This document shows, one piece after another, positions 30,857 to 63,555 of a stretch of 64,000 bases of DNA; position 1 is the first letter of the stretch; every line of letters begins with the position of its first letter. The notes under the pieces were generated by a model. It had not been told where the DNA came from. It did not search any database and saw nothing but the letters and a program-made list of their open reading frames with translations. Made by a program: the position numbers and the translations under genes. Source of the DNA: Leuconostoc mesenteroides subsp. mesenteroides (GTDB taxonomy: Bacteria > Bacillota > Bacilli > Lactobacillales > Lactobacillaceae); assembly GCA_009676745.1 (NCBI GenBank), contig CP046062.1:1349501-1413500 (forward strand), read 5' to 3'.

Positions 30857-30982
30857 ATTCTCAACTTGGACGATTTGCGACATTGAAATTTCAGCAGTAA
30901 GGTTATTACTTGATGATAAAGTTATGTGAAAAACAGAATGAATTATTGACATTTAATAAAAAAATTATGATACAATAGTGCA

Positions 30983-31060
30983 TGTGCTAGGGGCGCCAAA
31001 ATGGCTGAGAAGAACCCTTCGAACCTGAACTGATTAATATCAGCGTAGGAAAGTGCTACA
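30983..31060 (+). ncRNA. TPP riboswitch aptamer 1
   Basis: Contains the THI-box core: CTAGGGGCGCC, GGCTGAGA, ACCCTTCGAACCTGAAC, TGATTAATATCAGCGTAGGAAAG. The CTGAGA bulge and the GAACCTGA segment contact the ligand. A paired P1 is formed by TGT-GC and GC-T-ACA with a bulge. Followed by its own terminator at 31074. Confidence 0.96.
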
Positions 31061-31073
31061 TTTTTTAACGTAG

Positions 31074-31107
31074 CATTTTTCTCTGGTTGAGAAAAATGTT
31101 TTTTTAT
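31074..31107 (+). terminator. Riboswitch 1 expression-platform terminator
   Basis: CATTTTTCTC-TGGTT-GAGAAAAATG followed by TTTTTTT. TAGCA just before the stem can pair with TGCTA of the aptamer's P1, a plausible antiterminator switch. Confidence 0.88.
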
Positions 31108-31142: not shown

Positions 31143-31160
31143 ATGAATAATAATCACTAG
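31143..31160 (+). other. Five-codon ORF between the riboswitches, likely leader-duplication relic
   Basis: ATG AAT AAT AAT CAC TAG with AAAGGA 10 bases upstream. The surrounding AAAGGAATTT...ATGAATAATAA resembles AAAGGAATTT...ATGATAATAAC at the start of the permease gene (31313-31335). Its last codons are the P1 strand of the second aptamer. Confidence 0.5.
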
Positions 31161-31235
31161 GGGCGTCGCGAAGACTGAGATGATGTATATCGGTCCCTTT
31201 GAACCTGATCTAGTTAATACTAGCGTAGGAAAGTG
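31155..31235 (+). ncRNA. TPP riboswitch aptamer 2
   Basis: CACTAGGGGCGTC, GACTGAGATGA, TCCCTTTGAACCTGATC, TAGTTAATACTAGCGTAGGAAAGTG. P1 CACT/AGTG is perfect. All conserved THI-box segments are present, so it should bind TPP independently of aptamer 1. Confidence 0.96.
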
Positions 31236-31270
31236 ACCAATGTTTGACAACGGTTTGTATTGTTGTCAGA

Positions 31271-31308
31271 AGTGTCCTTTTTTGTGTATTTAGGGACACT
31301 TTTTTTAT
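31271..31308 (+). terminator. Riboswitch 2 expression-platform terminator
   Basis: AGTGTCC pairs with GGACACT, followed by TTTTTTATT. TGACAAC/GTTGTCA at 31245-31268 forms an additional hairpin between aptamer and terminator. Confidence 0.88.
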
Positions 31309-31326: not shown

Positions 31327-32613
31327 ATGATAATAACAAGACGCAATCGCATTATCAATCATGGCCTAGCCGGAATACAACACGTGTTTGTTTCTAACGT
31401 ATGGTTAGATCCAATTTATGTGGCAGCTGCCGGAGGGCTCTCGCTGAGCTTATCAACTAATCTCGTGAACACAATTTTTATTGTTTCAGGATTAGTTACG
31501 CTTACACAAGCAACAAAATTAGTGAAATTGCCTATTGTTCAAGGACCGTCAGCTGCTTTTGACGCTTTAATGATTAGTGCTGGTAAAAACGGTCAGTTAG
31601 CAACAGCAAGTGGTTCAATTTTACTGAGTGCACTTATTGTATTTTTATTGTCGGTTACAGGGCCTATTAATAAACTGATCAAAGTATTAACACCGGCAAT
31701 TACGGGTACACTAATATTTCTTGTTGGTATTTCTTTAGCTGGATTCACACTATCTGAATTTTTAGGTGGTTATCCAGGGGATAAAGGCTTCTCTTCACCA
31801 ACAACACTTATTTTGTCTATTACTACAGCAACTATTGTGATGCTATTGTCAATATTTGGTAAGGGGTTTTGGAAGCGTTTTTCATTTTTAATCGCTTTAG
31901 TTGTTGGTGATATTCTAGCCGTTTCTTTAGGTGTTGTAGATTACAGCGTGTTATCCACGAAGCCATGGTTTGGCTTGCCTCATTTATTACCCTATGGACC
32001 ACTATCGTTTAATTGGGTTATGTTTTTGACATTTTTTATTGCTTATGTAGTGGCAGTGATAGAGGCTCTAGGAGTTTATCAGGCAGCTGGTGGTACTTTA
32101 AAAGAAAATATCTCACCAAGGCGCATTCAAAATGGGCTAATCGGAGAATCTGCGGGATCAATGTTTTCGTCCTTATTCGGAGGCTTTCCAACAACTGCGT
32201 TTGCACAAAATGTAGGGATTTTAAATCTAACTGGTAACATTTCGAGAATACCAGTAATTATTGCAGGAATTTTGTTTGTCGTATTAGGTTTCATTCCTAA
32301 AATTGGTGCGTTTTTAGCAATAACACCTAGTCCAGTGATTGGTGGCATATTTTTGCCAGCAGCAACAACTTTAATTTTGACTGGATTCAATATTTTGAAA
32401 AAAGCACCTGATAATCATGAGAATAACATGATTATTGGATTGTCTATCATACTCGCGATTGCTCTGCCTAACTACGCGACCGGTTGGTCAGGTGTGACGG
32501 GTGAACTATTATCTAACAGTATATTAGTTGGTGCGGTGTCTGCTATCATTTTACAAATTGCCTTAGTTAATTTGCCACGCTTGATAAAAAGTATAAGGGG
32601 ATCTCATGATTGA
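31327..32613 (+). CDS. NCS2-family permease under TPP control
   Basis: Nucleobase:cation symporter-2 type permease, 428 residues, about 12-14 helices. NCS2 features are GLAGIQHVFVSN near the N terminus, QGPSAAFDALMI, and the GLIGESAGSMFSSLFGGFPTTAFAQNVG segment that carries the family signature for xanthine/uracil/ascorbate permeases. The substrate-contact Gln/Glu positions are partly changed relative to xanthine permeases. Directly downstream of two TPP riboswitches and overlapping the next gene by 8 bases. Inferred substrate: a pyrimidine precursor of thiamine, possibly HMP or an oxidised form. Confidence 0.88.
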   Translation: MIITRRNRIINHGLAGIQHVFVSNVWLDPIYVAAAGGLSLSLSTNLVNTIFIVSGLVTLTQATKLVKLPIVQGPSAAFDALMISAGKNGQLATASGSILLSALIVFLLSVTGPINKLIKVLTPAITGTLIFLVGISLAGFTLSEFLGGYPGDKGFSSPTTLILSITTATIVMLLSIFGKGFWKRFSFLIALVVGDILAVSLGVVDYSVLSTKPWFGLPHLLPYGPLSFNWVMFLTFFIAYVVAVIEALGVYQAAGGTLKENISPRRIQNGLIGESAGSMFSSLFGGFPTTAFAQNVGILNLTGNISRIPVIIAGILFVVLGFIPKIGAFLAITPSPVIGGIFLPAATTLILTGFNILKKAPDNHENNMIIGLSIILAIALPNYATGWSGVTGELLSNSILVGAVSAIILQIALVNLPRLIKSIRGSHD

Positions 32614-33718
32614 AAACTCTAAAAAAATTCAAAGCGACATTATAACTTTCATCAACAAATATAAAGATTATCAAACAGATCAATACGAATTTGAATTTAA
32701 TCAACTAGCTATGCGTATTTTTGCATATCAATTTCAAAACAATGTACCATATAAAAAGTTTGCTCAATTACGAAACAAAAATCTCTTGACTGTAAAAAAC
32801 TGGCGTGAGTTTCCTTTAATCCCGATTCAAGCGTACAAAGAATTAACCCTGTCAACCGAAGATATTAATCAAGCAGCGGATATTTTTTATTCGAGCGGTA
32901 CAACGAATATGAATCATAGAAGCAAACATTATATTTCGAATTTAAATATTTGGGAGGAATCTATGCGGGTAGGATTCAGGAAAAACGTTTTGCCTAACAC
33001 GAATAAAATTCGAATATTTTCTTTGTTTCCGGGGATGACAGATAATCCTAACTCGTCTTTATCTCGTTACATATCAACTGCTATGCGGGAATTTGGTACT
33101 AAAGATAGCCATATATTCTTTGAAAATAACCAACTAAACTATTCGAAATTAATCACTGCTCTTCGAGAAGTGGAAAAAATACAAGAACCCATATTACTTT
33201 TAGGTGCTTCATTTTCTTATGTTCATTTAATAGCATATTTACAGCGACATCAACAGTCCTTTAATCTAGCAAAAGAAAGCATTGTTTTTGATACTGGTGG
33301 GTTCAAGGGCAAGTCAAGAGAAGTGAGTATGTCTGACTTATATGCTGAATTAGAGAGCACATTTCAGGTGAAACGTGAACAAATTATAAATATGTACGGC
33401 ATGACAGAAATCAGCTCGCAATGTTACGATCGAAATGTAAAAGATTATTCAGAAAATAAAACAGTTTATTTTGATAAAACAGCTCCTGCTTGGGTAAAAA
33501 CTCAGGTCTTGGACACTGAAACGTTACAGCCTGTTGCACAGGGTCAACGTGGGCTATTAGCATACTATGATTTGGCTAATTGGGATTCCTGTGTATCCGT
33601 TTTAACTGAAGATATTGTTACCCAAAATAACTATGGTTTCAACATTATTGGTAGGGCAAAAGGATCAGTGGCGAAAGGATGTTCCATTACTGCCGATGAG
33701 CTATTACAACTACAATAA
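32606..33718 (+). CDS. LuxE-like acyl-protein synthetase (acyl-AMP forming)
   Basis: Adenylate-forming enzyme that would activate a carboxylic acid and hold it as a thioester. 370 residues, as in LuxE. Motifs: YSSGTTNMNH (95-104, P-loop like), YGMTE (264-268), GRAKGS near the end. C359 in KGCSITADEL lies 12 residues from the C terminus, the position of the acyl-accepting Cys of LuxE. It overlaps the permease gene and is followed by a LuxC-like gene, recreating the LuxE-LuxC pair of fatty acid reductase without luciferase or LuxD. Substrate here is probably not a fatty acid, given the TPP riboswitch. Confidence 0.88.
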   Translation: MIENSKKIQSDIITFINKYKDYQTDQYEFEFNQLAMRIFAYQFQNNVPYKKFAQLRNKNLLTVKNWREFPLIPIQAYKELTLSTEDINQAADIFYSSGTTNMNHRSKHYISNLNIWEESMRVGFRKNVLPNTNKIRIFSLFPGMTDNPNSSLSRYISTAMREFGTKDSHIFFENNQLNYSKLITALREVEKIQEPILLLGASFSYVHLIAYLQRHQQSFNLAKESIVFDTGGFKGKSREVSMSDLYAELESTFQVKREQIINMYGMTEISSQCYDRNVKDYSENKTVYFDKTAPAWVKTQVLDTETLQPVAQGQRGLLAYYDLANWDSCVSVLTEDIVTQNNYGFNIIGRAKGSVAKGCSITADELLQLQ

Positions 33719-33729
33719 AGGTGTCAATA

Positions 33730-35196
33730 ATGTCTAATAAAGAAATGACAAAAATTAATATTTTTTATGTGCCAGGTAATATTATTTTTGATGATTTAAC
33801 CGAAAAGGTAGTTGAAAATGAAACACATCAACTTGTGTTGTGCTATCCAAAGATATCCGAACAAGAAATAAAAAAAATTACAAAAATAATAACGCACAAC
33901 CGTAATCATTACTTAAAGCATTTAACGGTAAATGAAATTATTGATATTATCGCTCGAGCGGCAGAAAAATGGACTAATCCAGCATATCATTTTCGTAAAA
34001 TAGCAGAGAAAGCAGTCCCTATGGTAACAGGTTATGATGTGGATCAATTTAGTTTAGAGATCAAAAACTTTATTCGCTTATTTCGGGAGAAAGAATTAAA
34101 ACGATTTGTTAATAGTGAGCTCGGTCAGTCAGGTACAGTACTGGATGATTTTCAACCAAACCTTTCCGGTGGCTTTTCAAAATTTTACGGACCGGATTTA
34201 ATATTTCAAATATTTTCTGGTAATGTGCCAGGTATACAATTATGGACACTTATCATGGGGTTACTTGTAAAATCACCAACATTGGGGAAAACTTCTTTTT
34301 CAGAGCCTATTATGCCAGCATTGTTTGTTCAAACGTTAGCTGAAATTGATCCGAAATTTGCGGATACGATTGCTATTATGCCATGGCATAGTGGTGAAAA
34401 ATTCGAGAAGCACTGCCTTGATTTGGCCGATACTATTATTGTATGTGGCAGTAAAGAAACAGTTACATCTGTAAAAAGTAAAGCATCATTAAATAAGCGG
34501 ATTTTAAGTTATGGGTACAAAATTGGTTTGGCAGTAGTGGGTAGGGAAACGCTGACACCAGATCGTTATGTCCAAGTCATTAAAGACTTAGTTGAAGATA
34601 TAACCACTTATGATCAACAAAGCTGTCTAGCTCCGCAGTCAATTTTCATTGAAAGAGGCGGAGCAATAACACCGCAAGAGTTTGCAAGTATCTTGTCCAA
34701 TGAGTTGGATAACTACCAAATTAAATATCCTCGTGCACCGATAAACGAATCAGATAAAATCGCTATCGAAAAGATGCGGCAAGAAGCTGAGATAACATCT
34801 ATAAAAAATGAAGCAACCTCACTATTTCGTAGTGACAATAGTACCGCATGGACTGTTATTTTACATAACAAAAATGGATTTAGCGCTTCTCCTTTAAACC
34901 GCTCAATTCATATTTTTATGGTTGATGATTTGACTGATTTACCACTTGCGCTCACGCCATATCAACAATATTTACAGTCAGCCGGAATTGCGGTTTCTCC
35001 GGATCGTTTGTTCTTATTGGCAAATATCTTGGGAAAAGTTGGCGTTAATCGAATGAGTGCCCTAGGAAAAATGAACCATGTTTCCAGTGGATGGCATCAT
35101 GATGGACACTTTAACTTATTGGATTTAGTTCGTGTGACAGACATTGAGCAGAGCTTAGAATGCTATAGTGAGCAGTTTGATCCAGATGTGGAGTGA
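33730..35196 (+). CDS. LuxC-like acyl reductase
   Basis: Aldehyde-dehydrogenase-fold reductase predicted to take the acyl group from the LuxE partner and reduce it with NADPH to an aldehyde. 488 residues. The catalytic Cys299 lies in DQQSCLAPQS, the LuxC active-site context. IFSGNVPGIQLWTLIMGLLVKSPTLGKTS matches the LuxC nucleotide-binding region. ATG at 33730 behind AAAGGTG is preferred over GTG at 33721. It follows the LuxE-like gene closely and precedes the SDR gene, so all three are likely one enzymatic unit. Confidence 0.88.
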   Translation: MSNKEMTKINIFYVPGNIIFDDLTEKVVENETHQLVLCYPKISEQEIKKITKIITHNRNHYLKHLTVNEIIDIIARAAEKWTNPAYHFRKIAEKAVPMVTGYDVDQFSLEIKNFIRLFREKELKRFVNSELGQSGTVLDDFQPNLSGGFSKFYGPDLIFQIFSGNVPGIQLWTLIMGLLVKSPTLGKTSFSEPIMPALFVQTLAEIDPKFADTIAIMPWHSGEKFEKHCLDLADTIIVCGSKETVTSVKSKASLNKRILSYGYKIGLAVVGRETLTPDRYVQVIKDLVEDITTYDQQSCLAPQSIFIERGGAITPQEFASILSNELDNYQIKYPRAPINESDKIAIEKMRQEAEITSIKNEATSLFRSDNSTAWTVILHNKNGFSASPLNRSIHIFMVDDLTDLPLALTPYQQYLQSAGIAVSPDRLFLLANILGKVGVNRMSALGKMNHVSSGWHHDGHFNLLDLVRVTDIEQSLECYSEQFDPDVE

Positions 35197-35207
35197 GGAA
35201 AATAAAA

Positions 35208-35975
35208 ATGTTATTGAAAAATAAAGTTGCGCTGGTGACGGGCGCCAGTCGAGAAATTGGGGCAGCTATTGCCAAAGAGTATGCGAAACAAGGCGCCTTT
35301 GTTATTATCAATTACCTGAGAAATACCAAAAAGGCTGACGCAGTTGTTTCAGAAATTATTTCAGATGGTGGCCAAGCCATTGCTATAGCATGTGATGTAC
35401 GTGATGAAAAACAAGTAAATAACATGCTGTACGATATTTTTGAAAATTTTAGTACGATTGATATCATTGTAAACAATGCGCTAAGTCAATATCGATTTGA
35501 TCCCAAGCATCGAAAAATGTTCGACCAACTGCAGTGGGTTGACTACCAAAATCAAATGGAAGGTAGTATAAAAGCGGTTTTAAATGTTACTCAAGGTGCT
35601 TTATCAAAATTAAAAACTAATAACAGTAGTCGAATTATAAATATGACTAGTAATTTAGTCAAATCGCCATCAATTCCCTATCATGATTATATTGCCGGAA
35701 AATCTGCACTTCTTGGATTGACGAGGACAATGGCTAGCGAGTTAGGCGCCTTTGGTATCCGAGTAAATGCTATCGCACCAGGATTGACATATCCAACAGA
35801 TGCTAGTCAGTATACACACCGTGATATTCGCGAAGCACTTATTGCGCAAACACCGACTAAACGTTTAACTACGCCAGGGGATGTGGCAGGTTCGGCCGTA
35901 TTTTTGGCATCCAATCTGTCAAACAATATGACCGGTCAATGCCTGTTCGTTGATGGTGGTCTAACGATGCTTTAA
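35208..35975 (+). CDS. SDR-family reductase of the TPP-regulated operon
   Basis: FabG-like short-chain dehydrogenase, 255 residues, candidate for reducing the aldehyde to an alcohol. Catalytic Ser148, Tyr161 and Lys165 (YIAGK) are present with normal spacing. Two departures: the coenzyme motif reads TGASREIG (Glu16 where Gly is usual) and NNAG is NNAL (89-92). Both lie near the cofactor and may tune it. ATG at 35208 behind GAGGAAAA is preferred; the frame opens at GTG 35193 overlapping the LuxC-like stop. No terminator before the thiW-like gene. Confidence 0.85.
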   Translation: MLLKNKVALVTGASREIGAAIAKEYAKQGAFVIINYLRNTKKADAVVSEIISDGGQAIAIACDVRDEKQVNNMLYDIFENFSTIDIIVNNALSQYRFDPKHRKMFDQLQWVDYQNQMEGSIKAVLNVTQGALSKLKTNNSSRIINMTSNLVKSPSIPYHDYIAGKSALLGLTRTMASELGAFGIRVNAIAPGLTYPTDASQYTHRDIREALIAQTPTKRLTTPGDVAGSAVFLASNLSNNMTGQCLFVDGGLTML

Positions 35976-36030
35976 TCAATATAATAATTAAAAAATAAAA
36001 ACGCAATGGATTATGAACAAAGAAAGCATA

Positions 36031-36540
36031 ATGAATAAAAATATTAAGTTAACAAAAATAATGGTCGTTACGATTATAATAGCGCTAGATATCACGTTAT
36101 CTCCAATTTTTAGAATTGAGGGAATGGCACCAATGTCCAGTGTCATGAATATTATTGCTGGTATAATTATGGGACCAGCATATGCAGTTGTTATGGCGGT
36201 AGTCACTGGAATAATAAGAATGGTAATGTTGGGTATACCACCATTAGCTTTGACTGGTTCGATTTTTGGAGCTTTTGGTGCGAGTATCTTGTATAAATAT
36301 GGCCGTAATATGTATTGGGCAATGTTTGGTGAATTTCTTGGGACCGGAATTATCGGATCACTAATTTCAGTTCCAGTGATGGGGTGGTTTACCGGACAAC
36401 AACAAAACTTGTACTGGCTTTTGTATACACCCCGTTTTGTAGGTGCAACCATAATTGGGTCAGCTATCGCTTATTTTATTTTAGTAAATTTGCTAAAAAT
36501 AAATACCTTTAAAGAAATTCAGAGATTGTTTATTGGGTAG
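36031..36540 (+). CDS. thiW: ThiW-type ECF transporter S component
   Basis: Membrane S subunit predicted to bind the thiazole moiety of thiamine. 169 residues, five or six helices. ALDITLSPIFRIEGMAPMSSVMNIIAGIIMGPAYAVVMAVVTGIIRM is the ThiW N-terminal pattern (SP..RIEG..PM....N...G...GP). I favour ATG 36031; the frame also opens at 36013, neither with a strong ribosome site. It ends the TPP-regulated operon, 55 bases after the SDR stop with no terminator between. It depends on an EcfAA'T module encoded elsewhere. Confidence 0.87.
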   Translation: MNKNIKLTKIMVVTIIIALDITLSPIFRIEGMAPMSSVMNIIAGIIMGPAYAVVMAVVTGIIRMVMLGIPPLALTGSIFGAFGASILYKYGRNMYWAMFGEFLGTGIIGSLISVPVMGWFTGQQQNLYWLLYTPRFVGATIIGSAIAYFILVNLLKINTFKEIQRLFIG

Positions 36541-37248: not shown

Positions 37249-37716
37249 ATGGATAAAGATGAACATCTTTACGATGAATTGTGCTTATCAATATACAATA
37301 CAAATCGTTATTTTCATCATCTGTATGGTTATGTACTAGAAAAATATGAGCTATCATATTTGCAATATATGAGCTTACTGATTATTTATAAACAGAAATC
37401 GGTGAAATTAATGGATATCGGTGCCGAGCTTGAGTTGTCAAGTAATACATTAACACCTGTAATTGAGAAACTTGTCATTAAGTCTTGGGTTGTTAAAGCA
37501 CAGAGTTCGCAGGATAGACGTGTCAAAGTTTTAAACATTTCTGATCAGAAGGTAACCACTTTTGAACATATTTTGTCTGAGATAAAAAATATACGTGACA
37601 ACTTAATACATCAAAGTGGACGTCCAATCGGTGAAGTATTGCGAGACAATGAAGCCCTTAATCAGATTCTAAAAAATATGATACAAGAAAAAAGAGGTAT
37701 GAAAAATGAATTATGA
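37249..37716 (+). CDS. MarR-family transcriptional regulator
   Basis: 155-residue winged-helix repressor, close to the OhrR/SarZ-like group: LSYLQYMSLLIIYKQKSVKLMDIGAELELSSNTLTPVIEKLVIKSWVVKAQSSQDRRVKVLNIS. No conserved N-terminal peroxidatic Cys of OhrR is seen at about residue 15-22 (YDELCLSIYNTNRYF has Cys12), so redox sensing through that Cys is possible but not sure. AGGAGG precedes the ATG. It overlaps the flavoprotein gene by 11 bases and probably represses this operon. Confidence 0.9.
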   Translation: MDKDEHLYDELCLSIYNTNRYFHHLYGYVLEKYELSYLQYMSLLIIYKQKSVKLMDIGAELELSSNTLTPVIEKLVIKSWVVKAQSSQDRRVKVLNISDQKVTTFEHILSEIKNIRDNLIHQSGRPIGEVLRDNEALNQILKNMIQEKRGMKNEL

Positions 37717-39046
37717 TGTTATTTTTATTGGTAGTGGTCATGCTGCATGGCACGGAGCACAAACGTTAGCTCGTTCAGGAAAAAAAGTAGCCTTAGTGGA
37801 AGAAAATAAGGTTGCTGGTACATGTACAAATTTTGGTTGTAATGCCAAAATACTGTTAGATGGTCCAGCTGAAATGGTGCATCATTTGAAGCATTATCAC
37901 GGTATCGGAATTAATGACACGCCCAACATCATTTGGCCAGAATTGATGGCTTATAAGCACCAAGTGATTGATCCTTTATCGGATGGTTTAGCACACATGC
38001 TTTCTGTTGATGGAATTGATATTATTAATGGACATGCTAAATTTTTGAATAATGAAAAAATTGTTGTTGCTGATCAAGTTTATCAGGCTGAAAAATTTGT
38101 GATTGCTACTGGACAGCGACCCGCAAAACTACCAATTTCTGGTTCAGAATTTATGAAAGACAGTACAGATTTTCTAGACTTACCTGATATGCCAAAGTCC
38201 ATAGTATTTGTTGGCGCGGGTTATATTGCAATGGAATTTGCTTCAATTGCTCATGCTGCTGGGAGCGATGTTACTTTAATTGAATACGGGGACCATGCTT
38301 TAAATGGATTTGATAAGGTCTATTCTCAAAAAGTCGTTGAGGATATGACCGAGAAAGGTATCCATTTTACATTCAACCAAGCTGTTTCAAGTGTATCGTT
38401 ACTTGACAATGGACAATATCAAGTTGATACAGTGCAGGGAGAAACGTATCATGTTGACTATGTTATGGATACAACAGGTCGTGTGCCCAATATTGAAGAA
38501 TTAGCCTTAGACGACATTAATGTTTTGTATGATAAGCAAGGTATTGTAGTTAACGATCATTTACAAACTTCTGTTGACAATATTTACGCTAGTGGCGATG
38601 TGATTTCTAAAACAATACCAAGATTGACACCAACTGCTACTTTTGAATCGAATTATATTGCCAGCGTTTTACTAGGTAATCAGGAACCCATAAATTACTC
38701 TGTGGTGCCAACAGTAGCTTTTACATTACCTCGTGTAGCACAAATAGGGGTAACCGTCGACGAAGCGGCTAAGGATGAGAACCTACAGGTACATGAAATT
38801 CCTTATGGAAGAGTTATGCGATTTCAGACAAAGAACGATGTTCACGCAGCCATTAAAATCGTAGTCAATGAAAATAAGCAGCTAGTTGGTGCAGCTTTAA
38901 TCGGTGATTTTGCTCCAGAGGTTGTCAATGCATTAGTTCCTGTGATTAATCAGCAGTATACAAGTTCGGATATCAAATCGCAAATTTATGCGTTTCCAAC
39001 TGACTCAGGTATTATATTGCCAATGATTTCAAATTATTTAGCATAA
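37706..39046 (+). CDS. FAD-dependent pyridine nucleotide-disulfide oxidoreductase
   Basis: 446-residue class I flavin disulfide reductase. FAD-binding IFIGSGHAAWHGAQTLARSGKKVALVE, redox pair in GTCTNFGCNAKILL (C-x4-C), NAD(P) motif VFVGAGYIAMEFASIA, second FAD motif NIYASGDV and a C-terminal dimerisation domain. The closest described groups are mercuric-reductase-like and glutathione-reductase-like proteins of lactic acid bacteria. The final residues lack the HPT/HxxxxE dyad of true glutathione reductase (region reads AFPTDSGIILPM), so the acceptor is uncertain. Co-transcribed with MarR and the quinone-reductase-like gene. Confidence 0.88.
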   Translation: MNYDVIFIGSGHAAWHGAQTLARSGKKVALVEENKVAGTCTNFGCNAKILLDGPAEMVHHLKHYHGIGINDTPNIIWPELMAYKHQVIDPLSDGLAHMLSVDGIDIINGHAKFLNNEKIVVADQVYQAEKFVIATGQRPAKLPISGSEFMKDSTDFLDLPDMPKSIVFVGAGYIAMEFASIAHAAGSDVTLIEYGDHALNGFDKVYSQKVVEDMTEKGIHFTFNQAVSSVSLLDNGQYQVDTVQGETYHVDYVMDTTGRVPNIEELALDDINVLYDKQGIVVNDHLQTSVDNIYASGDVISKTIPRLTPTATFESNYIASVLLGNQEPINYSVVPTVAFTLPRVAQIGVTVDEAAKDENLQVHEIPYGRVMRFQTKNDVHAAIKIVVNENKQLVGAALIGDFAPEVVNALVPVINQQYTSSDIKSQIYAFPTDSGIILPMISNYLA

Positions 39047-39062
39047 TTAAGGAGATTTTATT

Positions 39063-40001
39063 TTGAAAGCAGCAGTCATTGATCAGTATGGTGGCAGAGA
39101 ACAGCTGAAAGTTATCGATATACCTGTTCCGACAATACAAGCAGACGAAGTTTTAGTAGAAAACATGGCCACAAGTATTAACCCAATCGACTATAAAGCG
39201 CGAGAAGGTTTTTTAAAACAGATGTTTCCATGGCAATTCCCAGTGATTCTAGGTTGGGACATCGCTGGTATAGTTGCTTCTACTGGATCTGAGGTAGCAA
39301 ATTTTAAAGTTGGAGATCCAGTGTTTTCTCGACCAGATATTGACACAAGAAGAATGAATGGTTCGTATGCAGAATATACAGCTGTTAAAGCGGATAAATT
39401 GGCACTAAAGCCAAATAATATTAGTTTTGTTGAGGCTGCTGCTGTTCCTTTAGCTGGGCTAACTGCCTTACAAATGCTGAGAAAACTTCAGTTATCATCC
39501 AATCAAAAAATATTAATTCAAGCTGGTGCTGGTGGCGTTGGTATTTATGCAATTCAACTGGCTAAAATGCTTGGTGCATATGTAGTAACAACTGCTAGCC
39601 AAAATAACCATGAATTTGTGAAATCTTTAGGGGCAGATTTTGTAATTGATTATCACAAAGACAATATTCAAGATTTGTTATCTGATTTCGATGCTGTGTT
39701 GGACACAGTTGGTGATGTTGATAATGGGATTGCTATTCTTAAATCCGGTGGACATCTTGTCACTATTTCCAACAAGTTAACTGATCAACAGAAAAAAACA
39801 TCAGACAAAACTGTGACAGAAGGGTGGTTAAACCCGAGCGGGCAAGATTTATCAATCTTAGCGTCGTATATCGCCAAAGGTGAGCTTCAAATTGTAGTGG
39901 ATTCTCTTTACCCATTAACTACAGACGGCATTCAATCAGCCCACGAGCGCAGCGAAACACACCATGCCCGAGGAAAAGTAGTTGTTCAAATTAAAGAGTA
40001 G
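39063..40001 (+). CDS. NADPH:quinone reductase-like zinc-free MDR oxidoreductase
   Basis: 312-residue medium-chain reductase without zinc ligands. NMATSINPIDYKAREG and GWDIAGIV at the N terminus, and nucleotide motif AGAGGVGIYAIQLAKMLGA. Probably reduces quinones or reactive enals. TTG start at 39063 with AAGGAG upstream. Third gene of the MarR operon, ended by the terminator at 40045. Theme: electrophile or oxidative stress. Confidence 0.9.
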   Translation: MKAAVIDQYGGREQLKVIDIPVPTIQADEVLVENMATSINPIDYKAREGFLKQMFPWQFPVILGWDIAGIVASTGSEVANFKVGDPVFSRPDIDTRRMNGSYAEYTAVKADKLALKPNNISFVEAAAVPLAGLTALQMLRKLQLSSNQKILIQAGAGGVGIYAIQLAKMLGAYVVTTASQNNHEFVKSLGADFVIDYHKDNIQDLLSDFDAVLDTVGDVDNGIAILKSGGHLVTISNKLTDQQKKTSDKTVTEGWLNPSGQDLSILASYIAKGELQIVVDSLYPLTTDGIQSAHERSETHHARGKVVVQIKE

Positions 40002-61374: not shown

Positions 61375-61558
61375 AAAAGATTATGATCGCTTAGTAAATC
61401 AACTATAGCTAAAGTATTTCTAACCATCACATGTCTATCTTTGTTTTATAATACGCCACAAACGTTTTATTTTTAGACCAATTACTATTTTGGTGTATGT
61501 TATACTAATTACAGCAAGCAAGTTAAGATGGTGGCTATCCTGAATGGAGGTGGTGCTT

Positions 61559-61576
61559 ATGGTGTTAAAACTATAA
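61559..61576 (+). other. Six-codon leader ORF upstream of the toxin peptide
   Basis: ATG GTG TTA AAA CTA TAA, behind GGAGGTGG. Such short leaders commonly precede holin-like toxin genes; its translation could affect access to the toxin ribosome site 20 bases further on. Confidence 0.5.
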
Positions 61577-61604
61577 ACCCAGATTCTAGGAAAGGAGATG
61601 CCTG

Positions 61605-61709
61605 GTGTCCGTATCGGATGCGCTACAATTAATGATTAGTTTTGGGATGCTTATCCTAACGCTAATTACTTTAGTTGTTGTGTTGATAAAAAACAGCACA
61701 AAAAAATAA
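61605..61709 (+). CDS. Putative holin-like toxin peptide (type I toxin-antitoxin)
   Basis: 34-residue hydrophobic peptide starting GTG TCC GTA (MSVSDALQLMI...), with one membrane helix and ending LIKNSTKK. This is the pattern of the holin-like toxin family of type I toxin-antitoxin systems. Ribosome site AAAGGAG 7 bases upstream; extended -10 TGTTATACT at 61498-61506. The toxin mRNA would end at the hairpin GGAGTCGTAG...CTACGGCTC (61782-61805, CTTTT). Overexpression of such peptides is known to disturb the membrane. Confidence 0.82.
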   Translation: MSVSDALQLMISFGMLILTLITLVVVLIKNSTKK

Positions 61710-61934: not shown

Positions 61935-62831
61935 ATGTTTTCTTTGATTAACAAAGTGATACATTGGCCTGATCAGATAACAAGTATGGAGAAACAAAAT
62001 AATAATACAATCATATTTACTATTTTTGTTTCACGTTTTTTTAAATTGTTAGAAAAGATGCATGTAAGCCAAGCTGAATTTGAATTCTTACTTCTGGAAA
62101 ATAATGAGAACTATTTATCTAAACGTATCAAATTAATTGATAACCAAGCAATTACTAAAAAATTGATTCAAGATTTTTATAAAACAATAAAAAAAGACCA
62201 AACAGAAAAATGTGGAGATAATACGCCCGAATTTCTATTAATCTTAGCGAACAGTCTACTTTTGCTGTTAAATCAGGAGGTTAAGGAATGGCCTAGCCAT
62301 GAATTATATGTGTTAGCTAAACCAGTACGGGATTATTTACTTGGTGTTGAAACCTGGGGTATTTATGAATTACAAATATTCACATTAACATCATTCATGT
62401 TGCCAGCTGATATTTTATATTTATTAACAAAGTTAGCGATTAAACGAGTACAACTTTATGAACACTCATTATTAAACATTCAAACACGATTAATGCATGT
62501 CGTTTGGACATCATTTTCGACGTTGGTATATGAGCAGCCCGCATCAGCATATAAATTAATTAATATTGCCGAAAACTATTTAATGAATCATGTAGATGTA
62601 ACTGAAAAAATTACATTAATCTTCAATAAAGGTTGGTATGACATCGAGACTGGAAATATCACAAAAGGCGTTCGCCAATCTAATACAGCTATAGATATTT
62701 ATAATTCATTGGGTTATACGGAAAAAGCTAACAGTTTACGTACACAGCTAGAACATCATATAAAAAGACAAGAGGATAAAAAGCAAGGGTATAAATCTGA
62801 TGGATCACGAGTAATTTCAATATTCATTTAA
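61935..62831 (+). CDS. Rgg/MutR-like protein lacking most of the HTH domain
   Basis: 298 residues. From about residue 90 on it follows the Rgg/GadR/MutR C-terminal domain of TPR-like helices that bind peptide pheromones: WGIYELQIFTLTSFMLP, RVQLYEHSLLNIQTRLMHVVW, EKITLIFNKGWYDIETGN, STAIDIYNSLGY-like NTAIDIYNSLGYTEKANSLRTQL. The N terminus keeps only SMEKQNNNTIIFTIFVSRFFKLLEKMHVSQAEF, the second half of the usual HTH; helices 1-3 are missing and are not found in other frames upstream. So it is probably a decayed regulator or a peptide-binding protein without DNA binding. Confidence 0.7.
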   Translation: MFSLINKVIHWPDQITSMEKQNNNTIIFTIFVSRFFKLLEKMHVSQAEFEFLLLENNENYLSKRIKLIDNQAITKKLIQDFYKTIKKDQTEKCGDNTPEFLLILANSLLLLLNQEVKEWPSHELYVLAKPVRDYLLGVETWGIYELQIFTLTSFMLPADILYLLTKLAIKRVQLYEHSLLNIQTRLMHVVWTSFSTLVYEQPASAYKLINIAENYLMNHVDVTEKITLIFNKGWYDIETGNITKGVRQSNTAIDIYNSLGYTEKANSLRTQLEHHIKRQEDKKQGYKSDGSRVISIFI

Positions 62832-63010: not shown

Positions 63011-63439
63011 CTAATGACCTCTGCGTTTTTCTGATTTCTTTTTCTGCGATAATAAGTAACGTTGCTCTTTTATTTCTTGATGTTTTAATGATTTATGTTT
63101 CTTTTTTTCAAGTTTTTTAGCAGTCTGCGCTAGTTTAATAGCTTCTTGTGCTTTAGTGCTAAGCCCGGCTGTTAAAGCTTTCTTTGCTAAACGCTGCATT
63201 CTTTTAGGGCTGACCTTTTTTTGAATTCGCTCGTTATTTGCTATAGTCACTGTTTTAAAGTGAACATGATGCCAGTTTTTAATTAAAAGTTCATAAATTA
63301 AACTGTCTCGCGGTTCTGAAGTACCTAAATTTATTTTTGAAATTTCATAAATATCGCCAGTTCGTTGTTCAAAAATTCCAACATAAAAAGGTTGATCAAA
63401 AATAATGGTCAACGATAAAGAATTACTATTTTGGTACAT
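63011..63439 (-). CDS. yjdF: YjdF-like protein (DUF2992)
   Basis: 142-residue basic protein. YNSNSLSLTIIFDQPFYVGIFEQRTG... opens the domain, and the C terminus KALTAGLSTKAQEAIKLAQTAKKLEKKKHKSLKHQEIKEQRYLLSQKKKSEKRRG is the Lys-rich coiled end typical of YjdF. Its function is unknown; the gene is linked to a riboswitch that binds azaaromatic compounds in Bacillus. ATG 63439 follows AAGGAG; the frame opens at 63481, which would place coding inside the riboswitch. Confidence 0.88.
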   Translation of the reverse strand: MYQNSNSLSLTIIFDQPFYVGIFEQRTGDIYEISKINLGTSEPRDSLIYELLIKNWHHVHFKTVTIANNERIQKKVSPKRMQRLAKKALTAGLSTKAQEAIKLAQTAKKLEKKKHKSLKHQEIKEQRYLLSQKKKSEKRRGH

Positions 63440-63472
63440 GATTTTTCTCCTTAATTTACCGATAGAAAGAAG

Positions 63473-63555
63473 GACAACCAAGGAGGAGGTTTACTGAAAA
63501 CTATACATTTATGTCCGGACTACCAACCGCACAGTGTTTTTACTTTCTGGTTGTT
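63473..63555 (-). ncRNA. yjdF-motif riboswitch
   Basis: On the minus strand a closing stem ACAACCA / TGGTTGT encloses conserved-looking loops: AGAAAGTAAAAACACTGTGCGG, TAGTCCGGACATAAATG, GTTTTCAGTAAACCTCCTCC. Position directly before a yjdF gene and the size fit the yjdF RNA motif. No terminator lies between aptamer and gene, so translational control is likely. The class assignment rests on position and general layout. Confidence 0.72.

Follow-up and report, generated by a model that had tools for sequence, protein, structure and literature searches.

A 64,000-nucleotide stretch of the 1.85 Mb genome of Leuconostoc mesenteroides subsp. mesenteroides (positions 1349501-1413500 of contig CP046062.1), called the window here, contains an operon in which two thiamine pyrophosphate (TPP) riboswitches precede five co-directional genes on the forward strand. 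The genes encode, in this order, an NCS2 permease, a LuxE-like synthetase, a LuxC-like reductase, a short-chain dehydrogenase/reductase (SDR), and ThiW. It is proposed, at a probability of roughly 0.55, that the LuxE/LuxC/SDR module represents a widespread, undescribed route by which bacteria recover an oxidized pyrimidine acid excreted by animals and rebuild from it hydroxymethylpyrimidine (HMP), the pyrimidine precursor of thiamine, offsetting the loss of ThiC.

The TPP-controlled operon of the window

The two TPP riboswitch aptamers are located at 30979..31068 (+; Rfam RF00059, 72.5 bits at a gathering score of 54.3) and 31149..31248 (+; RF00059, 81.5 bits). Behind each of them lies a terminator-like hairpin with a U tract, at 31050..31079 (+; fold of -9.5 kcal/mol, z -2.8) and at 31268..31303 (+; -14.1 kcal/mol, z -4.1), respectively. 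Neither leader hairpin is among the matches of a simple consensus terminator scan; the consensus scans gave 36 promoter-like matches against 27.2 expected and 3 terminator-like matches against 3.6, and they were not used. The operon is presumably switched off by TPP.

The NCS2 transporter gene (31327..32613, +), the proposed importer of a pyrimidine acid, belongs to the xanthine/uracil permease family (Pfam PF00860 Xan_ur_permease, 1.4e-74; 251.5 bits at a gathering score of 27). Its top NCBIfam model is a xanthine permease (320 bits, under the cut-off of 414), and its closest relatives among solved structures are uracil permeases. With an overlap of 8 bases it is followed by the gene for the LuxE-like acyl-AMP ligase/acyl-protein synthetase (32606..33718, +; PF04443, 8.6e-24; 84.6 bits at a gathering score of 24.9), and after a gap of 2 bases by that for the LuxC-like acyl-thioester reductase (33721..35196, +; PF05893, 1.2e-99; 334.4 bits at a gathering score of 21), which starts with GTG and has an ATG at 33730. 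The SDR gene (35193..35975, +; PF13561 adh_short_C2, 3.2e-52), proposed to be responsible for the step from aldehyde to alcohol, overlaps the LuxC gene by 4 bases. A gap of 37 bases separates it from the gene for ThiW (36013..36540, +; Pfam ThiW, 5e-44), an S component of the energy-coupling factor (ECF) transporters and predicted thiazole importer, which scores 156.9 bits with NCBIfam TIGR02359 at a cut-off of 84.35. An earlier reading made from the sequence alone (the sequence-only reading) had described five co-directional genes behind two TPP riboswitches, the last of them ThiW; the coordinates and the Pfam and Rfam matches confirm the arrangement, and the TIGR02359 score confirms ThiW.

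The curated NCBIfam equivalogs of bioluminescence are not matched by the window proteins, since LuxE reaches 84.2 bits of the 550 needed for NF052244 and LuxC 104.7 of the 750 needed for NF052251. Thus, the two proteins are relatives of the Lux enzymes and not Lux enzymes. The window SDR is likewise under the cut-off of the 3-oxoacyl-acyl carrier protein (ACP) reductase model PRK08642 (NF006393; 274.4 against 292 bits).

Distribution of the module and its TPP control

LuxE, LuxC, and SDR of this subfamily were found together in Bacillota, Actinomycetota, Pseudomonadota, and one metagenome-assembled genome (MAG) labelled Flavobacteriales. A tblastn search revealed 38 plasmid records with a LuxC match. 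Plasmids of L. plantarum and L. brevis carry a TPP riboswitch with NCS2-LuxE-LuxC-SDR, a Niallia megaplasmid carries two with ThiW-NCS2-LuxE-LuxC-SDR, and Pantoea has one with LuxE-LuxC-SDR. In Azospirillum, a TPP riboswitch with LuxE-LuxC-ABC-SDR was recognized (ABC, ATP-binding cassette), and the order in Priestia is identical. Genome contigs were scanned with a LuxC alignment, and the best 80 of 439 relatives were used. Together with the window, 86 fetched loci (L numbers) give 87 places, all of which have LuxC by construction. LuxE is present in 86 of the 87 and SDR in 85, and the misses (L043 for LuxE, L073 and L081 for SDR) are on cut contigs; inside contiguous units as delimited by the selection of open reading frames (ORFs), the counts are 79/86 and 80/86. 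Some of the module genomes are near-identical strains, such as three of Azospirillum brasilense.

The plasmids of L. plantarum and L. brevis (L005 and L006) share identical protein accessions for NCS2, LuxE, LuxC, and SDR, and the LuxC of Lentilactobacillus parafarraginis is nearly identical to theirs, which indicates a recent horizontal transfer of the module.

TPP aptamers were searched in all 86 fetched loci with a covariance model built from nine aptamers, seven of which come from module loci and match by construction. A same-strand upstream aptamer was found in 85 of the 87 places (84/86 labelled by script, plus L061, in which the aptamer precedes thiD and LuxE). The two places without one, L029 and L043, are both cut by the contig start. 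The distance from the aptamer end to the first gene has a median of 78.5 nt (84 places), and it is large only in L045 and L060, where no LuxE was selected among the ORFs in the interval up to LuxC. Among the aptamers taken into the counts, only six are located elsewhere. The weakest ones counted are those of L073 (28.3 bits, partial) and L060 (29.9 bits), and a match in L011 (14.6 bits, E 0.34) was left out. Five of the six plasmid loci described above reach the Rfam gathering score; the Priestia locus L009 misses it and scores 41.3 bits with the covariance model built here.

Selection bias was tested with two even draws of relatives, each of 398 genomes, one from the class and one from the phylum. 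In the class draw, 11 of 398 genomes have this LuxC at E 1e-60, and all 10 besides the L. mesenteroides genome itself have an upstream TPP aptamer; at least two of these ten (L092 and L093) apparently come from genomes already represented by L090 and L080 and are therefore not independent of the 80. The phylum draw yielded 4 of 398 genomes with the module LuxC (at least 651 bits), including the own genome, and the other three all have TPP; the LuxC of one genome in this draw (G593) has an in-frame stop. The next LuxC of the phylum draw scores 163 bits (L110) and has no TPP aptamer in its 1.5 kb flanks. The association of TPP aptamers with LuxC of this kind is more than chance.

The distant LuxC of L110 is grouped with genes that resemble, by names assigned by eye, homocitrate/isopropylmalate synthases, ketoacyl synthases, and carriers.

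Genes of thiamine metabolism also adjoin the module. Among the 86 units, 13 include thi genes besides ThiW; ThiM was found in 11, ThiD in 9, ThiE in 9, and ThiW in 10. The module continues thiazole-synthesis genes in two loci, after thiG-thiH in L051 and after tenI-thiO-thiS-thiG-thiF in L103. It follows thiM-thiD-thiE in L020, L034, and L036, thiD in L061, and a thiF-like fragment at the contig edge in L029. The module almost certainly has a role in thiamine metabolism. The sequence-only reading had proposed a salvage operon for a thiamine precursor that reduces an acid, and had held that relatives mostly without TPP riboswitches would speak against it. The riboswitch is the rule among the relatives, and with the thi genes in the units it gives the proposal strong genomic support.

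It is very improbable that the module reduces fatty or unrelated carboxylic acids and that the TPP control is coincidental. The known role of LuxE and LuxC is the reduction of fatty acids, and the names in five annotated records show no thiamine role: LuxC appears as acyl-CoA reductase, LuxE as acyl-CoA synthetase or long-chain fatty acid--CoA ligase, and the SDR as SDR family oxidoreductase or 3-oxoacyl-ACP reductase. Three relatives (L007, L009, and L010) have SDRs that pass the NF006393 cut-off, with 296.5, 298.7, and 299.1 bits. Against this stand the scores of LuxE and LuxC far under the curated long-chain models, the almost constant TPP aptamer, and the thi neighbours. No luxA, luxB, or luxD is among the identified neighbours, although no search aimed at them was made.

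Genome content and the half of thiamine concerned

The L. mesenteroides genome has two more TPP riboswitches, one upstream of thiM-thiD-thiE and the other upstream of a YkoE/YkoF/YkoD/YkoC-like set of transport genes. A profile search of this genome gave no candidate whatever for ThiC, and for ThiG one partial match of 25.8 bits, which is above the Pfam cut-off of 23 while true ThiG proteins reach at least 320 bits. With no ThiC, no true ThiG, and thiM-thiD-thiE present, the cell apparently can synthesize neither the pyrimidine nor the thiazole half of thiamine, and it possesses a kinase for each.

The presence of ThiC, ThiM, and ThiG was surveyed in 80 module genomes (sets of 50 and 30), which are the own genome and 79 of the 80 genome loci, with L069 left out. 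ThiG was counted as present above 300 bits; all 50 genomes of the first set exceed the Pfam cut-off, and four of them (G000, G001, G010, and G032) have only weak partial matches. ThiM matches under the cut-off (G031 and G033) were counted as absent, and fragments (ThiC in G041, ThiM in G852) as present. ThiC is absent from 34 of the 80 genomes, ThiG from 11 (present in 69), and ThiM from 19. Genomes without thiC and with thiG number 23, and the reverse combination was not found in any of the 80. Five genomes (L058, L062, L064, L070, and L077) lack thiC and thiM and have thiG. Such a cell makes thiazole, and it has no ThiM for the thiazole alcohol and no ThiC for HMP; an acid reductase under TPP control therefore points to the pyrimidine. 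The substrate is very probably derived from the pyrimidine half of the vitamin.

The sequence-only reading had named two candidates, the 5-carboxy form of HMP and thiazole acetic acid, and the genome content favours the former. Conversion of 4-methylthiazole-5-acetic acid to hydroxyethylthiazole, with import by ThiW and phosphorylation by ThiM, would agree with the presence of ThiW in 10 of the 86 units, the window included, with a locus in which ThiW is the sole labelled transporter (L014), and with the ThiM genes in 11 units. It is nevertheless unlikely, as 19 of the 80 genomes are without ThiM, 69 have ThiG, five combine thiG with the loss of both thiC and thiM, 76 of the 86 units are without ThiW, and the modules of L051 and L103 come after thiazole-synthesis genes. 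Thiazole acetate as the main substrate was thus rejected as less likely on the ThiC, ThiG, and ThiM content. A repair of the whole vitamin, from thiamine acetic acid to thiamine, is equally unlikely. TPP control and thi neighbours would suit any route that yields thiamine; NCS2 carriers, on the other hand, are of the nucleobase type, and the continuation of thiazole-synthesis operons or the adjoining thiD would not be needed for a product that is already thiamine.

The expectation of the sequence-only reading that module genomes lack thiC and keep thiD, thiE, and thiM held for thiD, which is present in 50 of 50 genomes (first set only, to which the five genomes without thiC and thiM do not belong; ThiD is required for synthesis de novo as well). 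It did not hold for thiC, kept by more than half of the 80, or for thiM.

Importers associated with the module

A LuxC tree of 84 rows was used to compare the importers, without L061 (LuxC frame unlabelled), L043 (LuxC cut), and one duplicate. The importer near LuxC is NCS2 in 33 rows and an NMT1/THI5-type ABC system in 40, and neither is nearby in 11. The importer label changes at least nine times on the tree, and the NCS2 clade includes three Paenibacillus that have the ABC type and another gene order. The binding protein of the ABC system matches Pfam NMT1/THI5 (5.8e-52), and the structures of ThiY and THI5 only distantly. Its best sequence match is PDB 4nmy, presumably a thiamine-bound structure, which was not used as evidence. 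The THI5-type binding protein was rejected as a proof of the pyrimidine, because the model of SsuA matches it too.

In an Arthrobacter locus (L046:7198-8685), a gene of the sodium:solute symporter (SSF) family is present in the importer position, and it may represent a third importer type.

Catalytic residues and the cofactor motif of the SDR

Conservation was analyzed for 80 LuxE proteins (at least 250 aa), 86 LuxC proteins, and 84 SDR proteins. The only homologues by sequence in PDB are the two kinds of chains of 7xc6, chain E for LuxE and chain A for LuxC. The C-terminal Cys359 of LuxE, pointed out by the sequence-only reading and found again here, is kept in 78 of 80 proteins, the exceptions being one truncated frame and one Ser; it is probably the acyl acceptor. 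In LuxC, Cys302 is invariant (86/86), and its counterpart by alignment in the LuxC chain of 7xc6 is also a Cys. Cys302 is the residue previously given as Cys299, with the number changed by counting from the GTG start.

The catalytic residues of the SDR are S153, Y166, and K170. The latter two are conserved in all 84 proteins, and residue 153 is Ser in 56 and Thr in 28. The Ser-Tyr-Lys triad is therefore intact, as had been stated, whereas an alteration in the Gly-rich motif had been overlooked. The cofactor motif TGxxxGxG reads TGASREIG in the window, where Glu21 (codon GAA, 35253-35255) replaces the second Gly. Gly occupies position 21 in 83 of the 84 proteins, that of L. carnosum among them, and Glu is observed in the window only. 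The window SDR may be impaired, the codon may be a base error, or another dehydrogenase may complete the reaction.

The LuxE frame is truncated in Leuconostoc holzapfelii (L012:8873-9676) and split in a Lactobacillus MAG (L032:5410-6505), which reflects decay or sequencing error.

Proposed pathway and its weighing

The Lux enzymes activate an acid with ATP, pass it as a thioester across two cysteines, and reduce it with NAD(P)H to an aldehyde. By analogy, the putative substrate, direction, and chemistry of the module would be as follows. The importer, NCS2 here and often an NMT1/THI5-type ABC system elsewhere, would take up a pyrimidine acid, most likely 4-amino-2-methylpyrimidine-5-carboxylate, which is known to arise from thiamine by oxidation. 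Using ATP, LuxE would form an acyl-AMP from the acid and then a thioester on Cys359. The acyl group would be transferred from there to Cys302 of LuxC, which would use NAD(P)H to reduce it to the aldehyde. Reduction of the latter by the SDR would yield the alcohol, HMP; ThiD would phosphorylate HMP, and ThiE would couple the product with thiazole phosphate. In L. mesenteroides, ThiW and ThiM would supply the thiazole half. The ATP- and NAD(P)H-dependent conversion of the 5-carboxylate to HMP is the probable reaction, judged from sequence data. The 5-carboxylate is the simplest acid convertible to HMP by such enzymes.

A related possibility, of lower probability, is that the module acts on the thiamine pyrimidine with another acid or purpose, such as a different carboxylated pyrimidine, the removal of a toxic analogue, or an aldehyde as the product. 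This possibility fits the same genomic evidence, which does not single out the acid, and it would be in line with the altered cofactor motif of the window SDR. An SDR beside LuxE and LuxC in 85 of 87 loci, however, points to an alcohol as the product, and 4-amino-2-methylpyrimidine-5-carboxylate is documented as a catabolite of thiamine, being named as a metabolite in rat urine in the title of a reference listed in PMC7780320.

Several observations weigh against the recovery of HMP from the pyrimidine acid. Most module genomes (46/80, one with a fragment) keep thiC; loss of ThiC as a strict partner of the module was rejected on this ground, and the module would often supplement synthesis. The five genomes with thiG and without thiC and thiM are MAGs, of which only L062 is assembled as a single chromosome, in a 4.15 Mb record that equals its genome in size. 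The asymmetry of ThiC and ThiG exists without the module as well: the 398 class genomes include 92 with thiG and without thiC against 13 with the reverse (hand count). It was therefore rejected as a proof on its own. Against this class background, 0 of 23 has a P of about 0.05, where the 23 include other classes and kin that are not independent. Among the Bacilli with thiG, thiC is absent from 15 of 30 module genomes (first set) and from 92 of 274 in the background (Fisher P 0.11); the loss is not clearly more frequent with the module. To these are added the 11 of 84 LuxC rows with neither importer nearby, the resemblance of the ABC binding protein to the SsuA model (8.5e-36, under the cut-off) and its distance from ThiY, ThiW in the module units and as the sole labelled transporter in L014, the Glu21 of the window SDR, and the three relatives whose SDRs exceed the 3-oxoacyl-ACP reductase cut-off.

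Other features of the window

Downstream from ThiW, at 37249-40001, genes for a MarR/OhrR-like regulator, a disulfide-reductase-like flavoprotein, and a zinc alcohol dehydrogenase follow in a row. The flavoprotein is under the cut-off of all 25 NCBIfam models among the matches listed. An rli28-like RNA (Rfam RF01492, described from Listeria) at 61491-61671 lies ahead of an Rgg-type regulator gene (61935-62831). An azaaromatic (yjdF) riboswitch at 63454-63553 (-) is upstream of a DUF2992 (YjdF-like) gene (63011-63481, -).

Implications and comparison with known systems

If the proposal is true, an oxidized vitamer joins the usable precursors of vitamin B1. Predictions of auxotrophy for genomes without ThiC would be corrected, as the acid could support growth, and a vitamin role would be gained by three genes whose names in the public records seen are general or refer to fatty acid metabolism. 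Cross-feeding could possibly link animals with bacteria, for example Bifidobacterium and the lactic acid bacteria. The family to which the acid reductase of Lux belongs, as one of its branches, would then extend to vitamin metabolism.

Salvage of base-degraded thiamine by TenA and YlmB is described in PMC5627462. The known salvage of HMP proceeds through import by ThiXYZ, CytX, or YkoEDC and subsequent phosphorylation by ThiD. The module is similar in the proposed TPP-controlled import of a pyrimidine, in ThiD as the putative downstream enzyme, and in the NMT1/THI5-type of one version of its importer, and it would differ by the addition of a redox step for an acid. The table of thiamine variants in gut bacteria (PMC6593275), in the part seen, gives CytX, ThiXYZ, and YkoEDC for HMP, and for thiazole it gives ThiW and ThiU; NCS2 is outside its list of HMP importers, and neither an acid reductase nor NCS2 is present in that part. 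The word reductase is absent from the main text of a survey of TPP regulons (PMC3766115).

No paper that joins LuxE or LuxC to thiamine metabolism is among the literature matches listed, most subscription literature being out of reach. Rodionov and co-workers (2002) reportedly named a thiamine-regulated reductase OarX. The SDR of the module may in part have been flagged earlier under this name. OarX together with thiamin was not found in the literature searched, again with most subscription papers out of reach.

Carboxylic acid reductases (CARs) also convert an acid to an aldehyde with ATP and NADPH through an enzyme-bound thioester. A CAR is a single protein with a phosphopantetheine arm, while the module uses two proteins with conserved cysteines. 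The LuxC-LuxE fatty acid reductase of bioluminescence (PDB 7xc6) is another related system: the same two protein families are involved, the catalytic Cys of LuxC is aligned, and the activation of an acid by ATP followed by reduction of a thioester is presumably shared. The module proteins are distant from those of 7xc6 (profile E 4e-33 and 5e-41) and under the curated Lux cut-offs, and the module has TPP control, an SDR for the alcohol, and no luciferase genes among the identified neighbours. The enzymes are of known kinds, and the pathway, if right, is a new form of precursor salvage.

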